A stretch of 64,000 nt of DNA from Pseudobacteriovorax antillogorgiicola. Its GTDB lineage: Bacteria > Bdellovibrionota_B > Oligoflexia > Oligoflexales > RGVZ01. The stretch covers positions 1 through 64,000 of the forward strand of contig CAMDHM010000006.1 of NCBI GenBank assembly GCA_945898195.1. Reading direction: 5' to 3'. Shown one piece after another: positions 58,383 to 62,716 of this stretch. A program made the translations under genes and the position numbers. How positions within the stretch are numbered: the stretch's first letter is position 1; every line of letters begins with the position of its first letter. The notes under the pieces were generated by a model. The model was not told the origin of the DNA. It was given only the letters and a program-made list of their open reading frames with translations, and made no database searches.

Positions 58383-58459
58383 CGCGGGGTGGAGAAGTCT
58401 GGTATCTCGTCGGGCTCATAACCCGAAGACCGCAGGTTCAAATCCTGCCCCCGCTACCA
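58383..58459 (+). tRNA. Initiator tRNA-fMet (CAT)
   Basis: 77 nt with encoded CCA. Initiator marks: anticodon stem CGGG-CTCATAA-CCCG with three G-C pairs, A11-U24 in the D-stem, and no pair at 1-72. Here position 1 is C and 72 is T, so the mismatch is C-U rather than the usual C-A. An integrase remnant follows 72 bp after its 3' end, marking the tRNA as a likely integration site. Confidence 0.93.
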
Positions 58460-58471
58460 ACAAATTTAGAG

Positions 58472-58498
58472 GCTTAGAGGTTAACTCTAGGCTTTTTT
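58472..58498 (+). terminator. Rho-independent terminator after tRNA-fMet
   Basis: GCTTAGAG pairs with CTCTAGGC (8 bp, one G-U) around GTTAA and is followed by six T. It is correctly placed to end the tRNA-fMet transcript. Confidence 0.75.
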
Positions 58499-58531
58499 GT
58501 TTGCGGTGGCGCACAAATGGTGAACCGTGAT

Positions 58532-59157
58532 TTAAACCAATACCAATTTTGGAAATGAACCGGTCAGCACATGGCCGCCTGATCGTGGTGTTACACTGAA
58601 CACAGCGGCGGTTTCCATGATCTTGTTTGGCAGCAGGTGCAAATAAAGCATCGTCGTCTTCATGTCTTTGTGCCCTAAAATTTTGCTGACGGTCACGAGG
58701 TTGACACCTTGGTCGATCATAAGTGTTGCTGCGGTATGTCTGAGGTCATGAAAGCGGATCGCCTGGTCCCGGATTCTTTCAAGTCCTTTGCAAAATACTG
58801 CCGCCTAAATACCTCGTGACAGATCGGGTTGCCGGTATCGGAGTGGCAAAAGACCGTACTCAAATTTGAGTATGCGCGGTTGGCCTGAAAAACTTCCGTG
58901 AGTGCTTGCTGAAGCCCTGCATTGCAAGGAACGTTGCGAGGCTCTCTACCTTTTGGGGGCCTCATCGTGCAGACTGTACGATCATACTGATGATCGATGT
59001 ACAATACGCGACCGCCTGATTTGAGATTCACAGGTTTGAGACCCCAGATTTCGCCCGATCGTAATCCAGTGTTCAATGCGATAAGATACACTGCATACAC
59101 CCACCTGTTTGGACTTCCTGGCGGATACTTTTGGTTCGTAAACGATAGGAAAGCTTC
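58532..59157 (-). pseudogene. Tyrosine recombinase/integrase remnant
   Basis: Catalytic half of a phage-type integrase. Arg in NTGLRSGEIWGL; HDLRHTAATLM with His and Arg; the terminal LGHKDMKTTMLYLHL with His and the tyrosine nucleophile. The frame shifts near 58765, between KDLKESG and RDQAIRFHDLRH. The 5' part is missing: the sequence meets the left end of an IS3-like element at 59158, and a stop occurs close to it. So it cannot make an active recombinase. Its place at the tRNA-fMet 3' end is that of an island integrase. Confidence 0.85.
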
Positions 59158-59224
59158 TGAACTTCCTCACGAAAACGGACTCCAAGAAAAGTAGAATGGG
59201 GTAAAGCCCCTATGGAGGAGTCCT

Positions 59225-59532
59225 ATGTCAAAGAAGTTGGGTCAAAAACGTCGTAAGCTTAGCCAAGAATTCAAGCAAGATGCGGTCAAACTGGTTATCG
59301 ATCAAGGCATGAAGTGCACGGAAGCCGCCAGGGATCTTGGGGTTGATCAGAATACCCTGAGTCGATGGGTTGCGGAATTCAAGGCCGATGGACCCGCCGC
59401 ATACCCGGGCAAGGGCTATTTGAAGCCCGATGACCAGCAACCAAAGACCTTGAAGCCCGCGTCAAACGCCTGACCATGGAGCGAGACATCTTAAAAAAGG
59501 CAATGGCCTACTTCGTGGACGTCCCGAAGTGA
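59225..59532 (+). pseudogene. IS3-family OrfA, frameshifted
   Basis: Starts MSKKLGQKRRKLSQEFKQDA with the usual helix-turn-helix (CTEAARDLGVDQNTLSRWVAEF). A shift before 59443 puts the C-terminal leucine-zipper part (KDLEARVKRLTMERDILKKA to stop 59532) in another frame; the original frame ends early at 59473. The A6G slippery run for the -1 frameshift into orfB (about 59494) is still present. Confidence 0.8.
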
Positions 59533-60110
59533 AGTATGCCTTGATTGAGACGATATCGAAGGTCCACGTGGCAAGTCGTGGGATTTACGGTAGTCCCCGG
59601 GTTTTCAAGGCCCTTAAGGCCGTGGGCAGTATGATTAGCAAGGCAACCGTCGAACAAGTTATGCGGGAAAACAAACTCAAAGCGCGTGGATCAAAAAAGT
59701 ACAAAGAAACCACGGATTCGAAACATTCAAATCCAGTTGCAGATAATATTGCAGCGCGCGCATTTGAACCTGGCGTCCCGAACAAGCTCTGGTGCGCTGA
59801 TATCACGTGCCTTTGGACCGACAAGGCTGGCTCTATCTGGCAGCTGTTCTTGATGCCGGAACCCGTAATTGGAATGCGATGCAGCATGAGCCGCATTGGC
59901 AATTGCTGGGACAACGCGGTCATGGAAAGTTTTTTTCATTCGCTGAAAGTTGAATGGGTATATCAGACACGGTATAAAACGCGTGCCGCAGCAAGATTCA
60001 GCATTTTTGAATACATTGAGGTGTTTTATAACCGGCAGCGAACTCACTCGACGCTTGGTTACGTCACACCGGAATGCTATGAGCGGCGACTGCTATCGAA
60101 ATGTGCTTAA
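59529..60110 (+). pseudogene. IS3-family OrfB transposase with deleted DDE core
   Basis: 193 residues versus the usual 270-290. The first catalytic Asp (WCADITCLW) and the Glu (CWDNAVMESFFHSLK) remain, but the middle with the second Asp (the HSDRGSQY motif) is missing: sequence jumps from SIWQLFLM to PEPVIGMRCSMSRIG. The loss of about 85-90 residues matches the shortened element. It cannot encode an active transposase. Confidence 0.85.
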
Positions 60111-60150
60111 CAGTGAGTCCGTTTTAGGCGGGGAAGATCATACGTGTTTT

Positions 60151-60777
60151 TTAAGTTTCGACTTCCTTCAGCCTAATCAAAGTCTCAGCCTTTATTCTTC
60201 CACCACTTAACTGTAATTGCCAAAGAGCCGCTTCAGGAAGTGTCAGAAAAAGCGCAACAAGCCGCATAGTGAGCATGTCCTTGCACTTTCCATTTTCAAT
60301 ACGCTTCATGGTTAAGTACGGCACATCGAAAGCAACAGAATATTCCCACAAAGATAGATGATGACGTTCTCGAAAGGATTTCAGTTCTACCACTAAATCT
60401 TGTAAATTAAAAAGTGTGACGGTCTCAAAAACAAAAGTGGAAGGCCCTCGTCTACCAATCGTAGTCAGCAGTTTGATGAGGTTAGTTTCAGTTGGGTTTA
60501 TACCGCAAGACTTGCAGTAGTCTTTATAAGCAGGGTTGTCCTTCGACGGGATACGGTCATAGAGGGATGGAAATATTTTTTCAGATTTATGGATCACTTG
60601 GGTTAAGGGCAGCTCAGGTCCAATTGAGATAGCGGTTTTCAAACGCATATATTTCATGTCGTAAGTAAAAATATAGGAGCCATCTTTTGCGTTATGCTCA
60701 AGAGACCCCACAAAAATTTTACGTTTGCGTCCTTCATGATAAACTTTGAGTTGATGAGGATCAGGTTTTAATTGCAT
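60151..60777 (-). CDS. HipS-like HipA N-domain fused to a C-terminal HTH (antitoxin)
   Basis: 208 residues. The first ~115 resemble the HipA N-terminal subdomain/HipS (KIFVGSLEHNAKDGSYIFTYDMKYM, FPSLYDRIPSKDN, TIGRRGPSTFVFE). Residues about 130-185 are a Cro/C1-type helix-turn-helix (LKSFRERHHLSLWEYSVAFDVPYLTMKRIENG). So HipS and HipB functions are in one chain, in the order S-B. It overlaps the kinase gene by 17 bp and is translated after it. It should repress the operon and hold the kinase inactive, by analogy with HipBST; this is inference. Confidence 0.75.
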   Translation of the reverse strand: MQLKPDPHQLKVYHEGRKRKIFVGSLEHNAKDGSYIFTYDMKYMRLKTAISIGPELPLTQVIHKSEKIFPSLYDRIPSKDNPAYKDYCKSCGINPTETNLIKLLTTIGRRGPSTFVFETVTLFNLQDLVVELKSFRERHHLSLWEYSVAFDVPYLTMKRIENGKCKDMLTMRLVALFLTLPEAALWQLQLSGGRIKAETLIRLKEVET

Positions 60778-61678
60778 TTTTAATCTCGTCGTATCTTTTG
60801 GTAATAAGTTTTTTCATAGCGGCTTTCATCAACTCTGAACAAAAGCTTTTATCCACAAGAGTAATGATCTTAGGCAAGTTTATGGAACTAAAAAATGAAT
60901 GCATAAAATCTTTAAACCCAAGACGCAAAAATTCTTCCACATAATCTGTTGCCGTGGGTTCTTTACTTATAAGCGTCGACATTTTTCCTCTCGGATTCCA
61001 ATCCGCTTTAAGAAAATCTCCGTACTCAAGGCCTAAAGCTGAGGTGTTGTCATAAATGGGAGCAAGACGAGTGCTCTTTGCTGTAACGAGCATTCCCAAA
61101 TTGCGCCCGTGACGGTCGTGATTGCCAATCAAAGAATCAAAAAGGCAGGTCTTTACAAAAATTTCTGCGTCAGCAAGGCGTCCTGTCTGCTGCAAAATTA
61201 AGCCCAGCAGATCTTCACAACAGAACTCCGCCTCAGGTTTGCGGTAGTGAAAAATATGCACCAGATTGGCAATCTCCACGCCTTGGACAAAATTTTTAGT
61301 TGCAAAGGTCCGCTCACCGCCAAATTTTAGGATATAAAAATCTGGAATAGGAAGTCCCAGTTGATGGGCAATTTGATTACAAAGGTATTCATTGTCAGGA
61401 AGCTCAGGCGCTAAGTCTTCCTTCACCTTAAAGATATAGGAGTTTCCGCCCAGGGTTGCCGAATATTTTTTAAACCGGCCATGAAAAAAGCTGGAATTCC
61501 AAGCGGTATCATTGGCGTCAACTTCCTGCCCTCCGCTTCCTGACTGGCGCCTAACAAAACCTTCAAATGGTTTTTCTATTTTAAACCACTCCTTGTAACA
61601 GGTTATGTGAAGACCCGTTTCCTCAAATTCGTTATCTAAAAAACCAAGACATTTTAGGCAAATCGAACTTTTAGGCAT
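60761..61678 (-). CDS. HipT/HipA-like serine/threonine kinase toxin
   Basis: 305 residues, ATG with AAGGG upstream. N-terminal Cys pair ICLKCLG plus CYKEW suggests a small zinc site. The HipA-type kinase core follows: nucleotide-binding SYIFKVKEDL, catalytic loop IGNHDRHGRNLGML (about 183-196), metal-binding PIYDNTSALG (about 208). It lacks the HipA N-terminal subdomain, which the next gene encodes, as in HipBST systems. Known HipT kinases target tryptophanyl-tRNA synthetase, HipA glutamyl-tRNA synthetase; the target here is unknown. Confidence 0.8.
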   Translation of the reverse strand: MPKSSICLKCLGFLDNEFEETGLHITCYKEWFKIEKPFEGFVRRQSGSGGQEVDANDTAWNSSFFHGRFKKYSATLGGNSYIFKVKEDLAPELPDNEYLCNQIAHQLGLPIPDFYILKFGGERTFATKNFVQGVEIANLVHIFHYRKPEAEFCCEDLLGLILQQTGRLADAEIFVKTCLFDSLIGNHDRHGRNLGMLVTAKSTRLAPIYDNTSALGLEYGDFLKADWNPRGKMSTLISKEPTATDYVEEFLRLGFKDFMHSFFSSINLPKIITLVDKSFCSELMKAAMKKLITKRYDEIKNAIKT

Positions 61679-61893
61679 ATTTCAACCCTTCACAGGTCTA
61701 AATTGAGTCCATCTGCATAATAGGCTCATTATAGCCCGTGTTTAAAATGGGTTCAATACATCTCACAACTAGTTCGTAACGCCGCATGATCACAGATGTT
61801 TAAAATATTAACCCTAAGAAAAATTGGAAAATAAGCGGCCTGAGTAAAATAAGTTTGGTAGTTTTTCATTTTATTGTTGACAAACATAAGTAC

Positions 61894-61930
61894 CGGCTCC
61901 CTTGAATAAATCAGAGCCGTTTCTTTTTGT
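61894..61930 (+). terminator. Terminator-like hairpin in a gene-free spacer
   Basis: CGGCTC (61894-61899) and GAGCCG (61914-61919) around a 14-nt loop, followed on the plus strand by TTTCTTTTT. No plus-strand gene lies upstream, so it may end a small RNA or be chance. The rest of 61679-62020 holds the presumed promoter of the hip-like operon and no gene. Confidence 0.35.
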
Positions 61931-62020
61931 GCGGCGGATAACCACCGACTCGATGCACGTGATTACAATCACGAATTTATAATACATTGACCCAGTGATT
62001 TGACTCAACGATCGCGGAGA

Positions 62021-62575
62021 TTATGCGTCGTAATCGCCTTTATAACGAATTCCTAAAGCGTTGTTGAATCGATTCAGCATATTTATGAAGCCTATCAGAA
62101 AAGTCAGTTCGACAATTTCTGGGTCACTAAAGTGCTGCTTAATCTCTGCAAAAAGAATGTCTGAGACGCGATTAGAATCTCGCGTGACAACTTCCGTGTA
62201 AGCCAAAGCCGCCTTCTCACGCGGAGAAAGAAGATCCAAGTTTTCGACGGCAACCACTGGGTCATCACTAATTCCCAACTGGCGCATCAGACTGATGTGA
62301 GAACTCGCACAAAACTGGCATTCGTTCATCAACGAAGCCTTCAGAATCACTTTCTCTTTAAGAACACGGTCCAAAATTCCACCGGGATAAACACTACTTC
62401 CAAAGGTCGAAAATGAAGCTAGAAGCTCAGGCCTCATCGCCAAGGCCTGCAGCATTTCAACCACAGGAAAGCCGCGATCTTGAAGGCGCCGGCTCTCGGC
62501 CAAGCTCGAGTCCGCTTTAACAGCATCGAATGATTTTTTGACGATTTCAGGATCGATTGTAATCCGCATCTTCAT
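62021..62575 (-). CDS. AhpD-like/carboxymuconolactone decarboxylase-family protein
   Basis: About 184 residues; the start is uncertain (ATG 62575 or 62569 follow GGGGGAT; 62611 is the far upstream choice). NECQFCASSHISLMRQLG carries the CXXC-x2-H of AhpD-type peroxidases, and ALAYTEVVTRDSNRVSD is the second half of the fold. Such proteins reduce peroxides or act as non-heme redox partners. It is isolated from redox partners here. Confidence 0.82.
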   Translation of the reverse strand: MKMRITIDPEIVKKSFDAVKADSSLAESRRLQDRGFPVVEMLQALAMRPELLASFSTFGSSVYPGGILDRVLKEKVILKASLMNECQFCASSHISLMRQLGISDDPVVAVENLDLLSPREKAALAYTEVVTRDSNRVSDILFAEIKQHFSDPEIVELTFLIGFINMLNRFNNALGIRYKGDYDA

Positions 62576-62716
62576 ATCCCCCATCAAGTTGACCAAATTC
62601 CCAGCAAACATTATTATCTTCTGCCAAAAAAAAGTTCATCAACGAAAAATCAAAAGATATTTTGCTCCGTCGAAAAACACCAATGCATGATAGAATCTTG
62701 AAGGAGGATTTTACCC

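Follow-up and report, generated by a model that had tools for sequence, protein, structure and literature searches.

Organization of the locus and its genomic context

The minus strand of the analyzed window (the whole stretch of DNA under study, 64,000 nucleotides) carries two overlapping open reading frames, of which the kinase gene is the first and the gene for a HipS-HTH protein the second:

60761-61678, minus strand: putative toxin gene, encoding a 305-aa HipA-type Ser/Thr kinase without N-subdomain 1, of a HipI-like clade
60151-60777, minus strand: putative gene for antitoxin and autorepressor (208 aa), a HipS-type domain fused to a Cro/C1-type helix-turn-helix (HTH)
60761-60777, minus strand: 17-nt overlap between the end of the kinase gene and the start of the antitoxin gene

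Both genes were full length, with no stop codon interrupting either of them, and the GC content of the pair was 41%, vs. 51% for the window. No second copy was found in the home genome, where the window kinase was the sole HipA_C match. The pair is situated within an island, together with the remains of an integrase and of a transposase:

58463-61879: island of 3.4 kb between tRNA-fMet and its terminator
58383-58459, plus strand: tRNA-Met (CAT), the insertion site
58532-59100, minus strand: broken phage-type integrase in two fragments, PF00589 being matched in both
59225-60110, plus strand: remnant of an IS3-type transposase (HTH_Tnp_1, HTH_21, rve_2/rve_3)

A preliminary description of this DNA, made from the sequence letters, had placed the genes on an island remnant beside tRNA-fMet, and this location was borne out by the integrase and IS3 fragments and by the empty site detected in two congeneric genomes (G040 and G042), in which tRNA-fMet runs straight into the terminator. 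The empty site in these relatives settles the insertion; no convincing direct-repeat att sites were found at the island. The kinase/HipS-HTH pair is the only intact cargo of this decayed 3.4-kb island, a situation that would fit an addiction or defence module. A gene of the carboxymuconolactone-decarboxylase family (window positions 61930-62686) adjoins the island; the relatives searched have no equivalent of it, and a MAPEG gene lies directly after their tRNA terminator.

Domain structure of the kinase

The kinase matched the Pfam family HipA_C (7.7e-23) and gave no Pfam match to Couple_hipA (N-subdomain 1), in agreement with the HipA-like kinase lacking the N-terminal subdomain that had been proposed initially. 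The following elements were recognized in its sequence:

61598-61660, minus strand: zinc-knuckle-like motif C7-x2-C10...H24-x2-C27 (kinase aa 7-27), invariant in 38/38 kinases
61463-61492, minus strand: Ser63, a candidate autophosphorylation serine, and Gly-rich loop, SFFHGRFKKY (kinase aa 63-72)
61100-61117, minus strand: catalytic motif D188-RHGR-N193 (kinase aa 188-193), aligning with DGHAKN of E. coli HipA
61049-61051, minus strand: Mg-binding aspartate D210, invariant in 38/38 kinases

The HipA_C fold, the Gly-rich loop, the catalytic D...N and the Mg-binding D were all present in the window kinase. In the alignment of 38 kinases, position 63 was Ser in 35 sequences and Thr in two, while G67, K71, Y72, K84, D188, N193 and D210 did not vary. 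Loss of ATP-binding residues, raised in the preliminary description as an objection, was not seen in this alignment, and inactivation of the kinase through residue loss was rejected, as every active-site residue is intact.

The zinc-like N-terminal CXXC motif had also been pointed out at that stage. Its presence is a constant trait of the family, yet not one peculiar to it, given that C-x2-C...H-x2-C is shared with three HipT kinases (L096, L099 and L100); other HipTs have a similar N-terminal stretch with an incomplete set of ligands. The mini-domain of E. coli HipT, whose significance has been called unknown (PMC10627512), may be related to this zinc knuckle and have degenerated, judging from the shared residues.

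The AlphaFold2 (AF2) model of the kinase had a pLDDT of 88, and in Foldseek searches it matched CtkA (8e-12) and HipT Lp (2.5e-11), in this order, as well as HipA. The top structural match was thus CtkA of H. pylori, above HipT and HipA.

Domain structure of the HipS-HTH protein

A Pfam match to Couple_hipA (8.3e-8) was obtained at aa 21-112 of the 208-aa protein, which continues beyond the HipS part for ~80 more residues with an HTH:

60415-60777, minus strand: HipS/N-subdomain-1 fold (antitoxin aa 1-121), with a HipN-like RIPSK-NPAY motif
60193-60414, minus strand: helical HTH domain (antitoxin aa 122-195), with HTH helices at aa 143-149 and 154-161

The HTH of the window protein itself was below Pfam detection, while HTH_3 was matched in 25 of 42 relatives (best 1.2e-9), in some of them above the curated cut-off. 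An AlphaFold2 model of the protein, built from the 42 relatives, reached a pLDDT of 94.5. Its best solved matches were HipS proteins of L. pneumophila and E. coli in complex with HipT (for the S half, 7vkb_B, 8.4e-5; 8ezr_A, 2.1e-4; 7ab3_B, 1e-3; target TM 0.83-0.86), followed by Cro/C1-type (Xre) regulators including E. coli HipB. Since the structural HTH matches were weak by E-value (0.06 and above), the HTH assignment leans on fold, order and Pfam matches combined. That the HTH might be a part of HipS was ruled out, as HipS matches ~100 residues and the remaining helices match Xre-type folds instead. The overlapping second gene had initially been read as an S subdomain followed by an HTH, and the Couple_hipA match, the model and the HTH_3 matches in relatives uphold this reading.

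The S domain aligned to HipN (hhalign) across F-x2-R-x-P-x-K-x2-P-x-Y-x2-Y, where HipS has LLPEG. The Trp and Glu through which E. coli HipS inhibits (LPEGW) are absent, RIPSK being found at that position; as the Trp wedge is missing, the inhibitory contact must differ. No match to a HIRAN domain was detected in 42 family members. Mean identity among antitoxins was 32% for the HTH vs. 48% for the S domain. An additional domain follows at the C-terminus of three antitoxins (L036:601-1206:+, L026:5595-6197:+ and L037:5205-6152:+). That of L036 matched the defence protein PD-Lambda-4_A (7e-20), while those of L026 and L037 had no convincing family match and appeared restriction-nuclease-like (D...ExT pattern, by eye).

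Distribution and conservation of the gene pair

When 84,980 species genomes were scanned once with an alignment of the antitoxin, which served as the query for locus collection, 43 loci were obtained from at least six phyla, as named in the record titles: Bdellovibrionota, Pseudomonadota (Legionella included), Verrucomicrobiota, Chlamydiota, Fermentibacterota/Aegiribacteria and Sumerlaeota. A kinase ORF or a fragment of one was found directly upstream of the antitoxin in 39 of the 43 loci, and the two genes overlapped by 4-32 nt in 38 of these 39 pairs, 17 nt being the commonest overlap. The two-gene toxin-antitoxin layout suggested in the preliminary description therefore recurs in other genomes across these phyla. 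The divergences of kinase and antitoxin were correlated (rho 0.56, Mantel p 0.002), and the conservation of the pair across phyla is far beyond chance. The four loci without a pair correspond to two contig edges (L036 and L051), an orphan antitoxin (L017) and L034, and in three other loci (L024, L039 and L044) broken kinases accompany intact antitoxins. The orphan of L017 (4986-5636) is a lone antitoxin amid housekeeping genes; in L034 (4893-5699) the kinase has lost its core, and its zinc knuckle is joined straight to the S-HTH protein.

Within the home phylum the kinase was detected at 398 bits or more in 6 of 58 genomes, and the next match had 76 bits, indicating that the family is sharply bounded. 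No close relatives of the antitoxin were found on plasmids or viral contigs, and for the kinase only distant matches were found there. One locus has a truncated second copy of the pair beside the intact one (L018:7785-8431). More HipA-type kinase loci were observed within a few kb of three family loci (L010:8716-9998, L022:4239-5192 and L046:650-1902), suggesting that Hip modules may cluster in islands.

Phylogenetic placement of the kinase

The kinase tree included HipA, HipT and HipI references gathered in the analysis, with only 5-6 HipI and without HipJ, HipG or HipM; it contained long branches, and the groups for the approximately unbiased (AU) test were picked after viewing a first tree. 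The 38 family kinases formed one clade (support 89/88), and a branch with support of 100/99 set the family and HipI apart from HipA and HipT. Grouping of the family with HipT (p 0.0195) or with HipA (p 0.016) was rejected in the AU test. The family kinases are thus on the HipI side, yet in a separate clade, as far as 5-6 sampled HipI sequences tell, and the initial identification of the window kinase as a HipT did not hold. For the S domain, a tree had too few columns for deep branches, and the comparison was based on alignment and motif.

Taken together, the kinase tree and the HipN-type S motif place the module nearer to hipIN than to hipBST. Both hipIN and hipJS are known to encode the kinase first and a HipS-bearing protein second (Gerdes et al. 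2021, PMC8262856), and kinase-first hipIN loci were met in phages in the present analysis too. As the genes of hipIN are arranged alike, the module shows no reversal of gene order relative to its own kin. The published census comprises ten Hip-kinase organisations (PMC8262856); the HipS-HTH fusion was not found in it or in the accessible literature (subscription papers and supplements lay outside the search), nor was any described HipBST subtype with a kinase-first S-HTH architecture, the possibility that the preliminary description had left open. Of the present module, the PADLOC candidate PDC-M03 covers no more than the kinase and the S half. As read from the domain assignments, the new element is the HTH fused to HipS, where HipN carries HIRAN.

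Promoter and operator-like repeats

Upstream of the kinase gene, the following elements were recognized:

61728-61756, minus strand: promoter-like TTGAAC-17-TATAAT (10/12 match, consensus scan)
61744-61759, minus strand: operator-like repeat 1 (GTATTGAACCCATTTT), over the -35, 27 bp from repeat 2; weak
61717-61732, minus strand: operator-like repeat 2 (ATAATGAGCCTATTAT), over the -10, the 27-bp offset being the family signature; weak

In the consensus scan, promoter-like sites were not clearly more numerous than in shuffles, and the window's own repeats were weak (11/16 at 27 bp, p 0.017; combined p 0.008). In 33 loci, the best 16-nt self-match upstream of the kinase at offset 27 averaged 12.8/16, vs. 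~8.3 elsewhere, and an echo of this periodicity appeared at offset 54. After dereplication at 60% kinase identity (27 loci), offset 27 reached 13/16 in 16 loci (mean 12.5), while 60 shuffled sets gave a best-offset mean of 8.8 and a maximum of 9.2 over all offsets. No repeat signal was detected in a control stretch 300-450 nt upstream. Inverted repeats were present in 14/34 upstream, 2/32 downstream and 0/33 within-gene regions. Many of the repeats were palindromic (e.g. GACAGGAATTCCTGTC, found twice in L042), and their sequence varied by locus, as would fit an HTH that diverges faster than the S domain. L042 and L025 are among the loci with strong arrays.

The same scan applied to E. coli K-12 hipBA, as a positive control, recovered operators 28, 39 and 28 bp apart. 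Repeats at hipBST promoters were spaced by 40 or 71 bp, and the 27-bp array was absent from six hipIN loci. The repeats upstream of hipB were near-identical and ~71 or 40 bp apart in L057, L069, L094, L098, L096, L099 and L100. In the family, the conserved spacing, a sequence signal that is weak in the window itself, strongly suggests that the HTH half would bind the 27-bp-spaced promoter repeats and repress the operon.

Proposed function and alternative explanations

The adjacent, overlapping and co-conserved genes have the layout of a type II toxin-antitoxin system, and the kinase/HipS-HTH pair is probably such a module of the HipA-kinase superfamily, with toxicity, rescue and DNA binding as predictions from its sequence. 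The five loci in which the kinase is broken or gone and the antitoxin intact (L017, L034, L024, L039 and L044) were counted in favour of this reading, bearing in mind that kinase loss with the antitoxin kept is not comparable with the reverse when the antitoxin is the query. The small Ser/Thr kinase would be the toxin, arresting growth through phosphorylation of a cellular target, which probably belongs to the translation machinery, as for HipA and HipT. The second gene, translationally coupled via the overlap, would supply a bifunctional antitoxin. By analogy with HipBST structures, its HipS-type half would dock on the kinase at the site of HipA's N-subdomain 1 and keep the Gly-rich loop in a conformation that excludes ATP; HipT is neutralised by HipS either through a block on ATP binding (PMC9325769) or through a Trp wedged at the active site (PMC10627512). 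The Cro/C1-type half, on the 27-bp promoter repeats, would in turn repress the operon, so that one chain would unite jobs split between HipS and HipB in hipBST. Addiction or phage defence might explain the retention of the pair on the island. The two-gene unit is a widespread, apparently undescribed variant of the HipA toxin-antitoxin group and not a rearranged HipBST.

The preliminary description had interpreted the locus precisely as the latter, a hipBST with a HipT kinase, whose genes run in reversed order and whose HipB has been joined to the C-terminus of HipS. The three domain types are indeed the same, HipT likewise lacks N-subdomain 1 and its N-terminal mini-domain resembles the zinc knuckle. 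However, the kinase falls outside the HipT clade (100/99; AU p 0.0195), the S-domain motif is HipN-like, the kinase-first order is normal in hipIN and hipJS, and hipBST promoter repeats are 40 or 71 bp apart, not 27. This interpretation was rejected on the tree, the AU test and the S-domain motif, and we consider it highly improbable. Comparably slight is the probability that the pair is a decaying, non-functional remnant in the window genome: its island neighbours, the integrase and the IS3 element, are broken and the window's own operators are weak, but both genes are full length, free of stops and retain every invariant residue. A regulatory pair without a toxin, in which HipS-HTH would be a transcription factor whose activity the kinase adjusts, is also improbable, if somewhat less so. 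It could accommodate the fact that toxicity is a prediction from sequence, as well as the first place in the structure search of CtkA, which is HipA-like but not known to be the toxin of a classical toxin-antitoxin pair; yet the HipS fold, the operon overlap and the operator pattern match toxin-antitoxin modules, patchy distribution and low GC fit mobile addiction genes, and HipA and HipT are recorded growth inhibitors (PMC6581861, PMC9325769).

A phage-triggered abortive infection like that proposed for hipIN deserves more weight, while still being rather unlikely, and it is compatible with the type II toxin-antitoxin reading, as the two are not exclusive. HipS-HTH would release the kinase on meeting phage DNA or proteins, sensed by its DNA-binding half or by a fused sensor. 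The closest relatives of the module in tree and order are hipIN, found in phages and as PADLOC PDC-M03, the C-terminal domain of the L036 antitoxin resembles PD-Lambda-4_A, and the pair is located on an island. On the other hand, the window locus has no defence gene next to it, autoregulation is what the operator arrays indicate first, and fused domains occur in only 3 of ~43 members. A bolder version, to which we give slightly less credence still, is that in an undescribed Hip-kinase organisation, common among environmental bacteria, one protein would combine active-site inhibitor, autorepressor and sensor of phage attack that frees the kinase, by means of exchangeable C-termini (HTH alone, HTH with a PD-Lambda-4-like domain, or HIRAN in the sister hipIN).

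As a type II toxin-antitoxin module, the pair would add to the census (PMC8262856) a missing Hip-kinase organisation, with neutralisation and autoregulation on one chain made after the toxin. It would also offer a simpler system for questions posed by hipBST, namely whether the HipS fold is enough to inhibit without the Trp wedge, and whether an antitoxin bound to DNA keeps the kinase in a higher-order complex, of which the operator spacing, close to that of hipBA, is suggestive. With its strict spacing of 27 bp and freely varying operator sequence, the array may provide a handle on the geometry of the repression complex, and the swaps of C-terminal domains among antitoxins suggest a modular sensor.

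Comparison with known systems

The system most similar to the family is hipIN, in which a short kinase is also encoded first and the second protein has an N-terminal HipS-like domain and a C-terminal DNA-binding domain; its kinase clade is the nearest among those sampled, and the RxP...Y motif of the S domain is common to both. The differences are that HipN is a HipS-like-HIRAN protein (PMC8262856), while the family antitoxin has an HTH instead, that the family kinase bears a zinc knuckle, that the 27-bp operator array of the family is absent from the six hipIN loci, and that the family kinases form their own clade (89/88). In hipJS, compared by description as HipJ was outside the tree, the kinase likewise comes first, lacks N-subdomain 1 and is followed by HipS (Gerdes et al. 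2021), which has no DNA-binding domain.

The hipBST systems of E. coli O127 and L. pneumophila share with the family the three functional domains, the HipS fold and a HipT mini-domain resembling the zinc knuckle. They consist of three genes in the order B-S-T, unlike the two genes, kinase first, of 39/43 family loci, and differ in their separate HipT clade, the LPEG(W) motif and promoter repeats 40 or 71 bp apart. E. coli K-12 hipBA resembles the family in its HTH autorepressor and in operator pairs 28 bp apart (27 in the family), but HipA bears N-subdomain 1, HipB is devoid of a HipS domain and the order is B-A. Finally, the reversed-order hipEB and hipAB encode the kinase first and an HTH protein second, as the family does, with a kinase that bears N-subdomain 1 and an antitoxin without the HipS part (PMC8262856).
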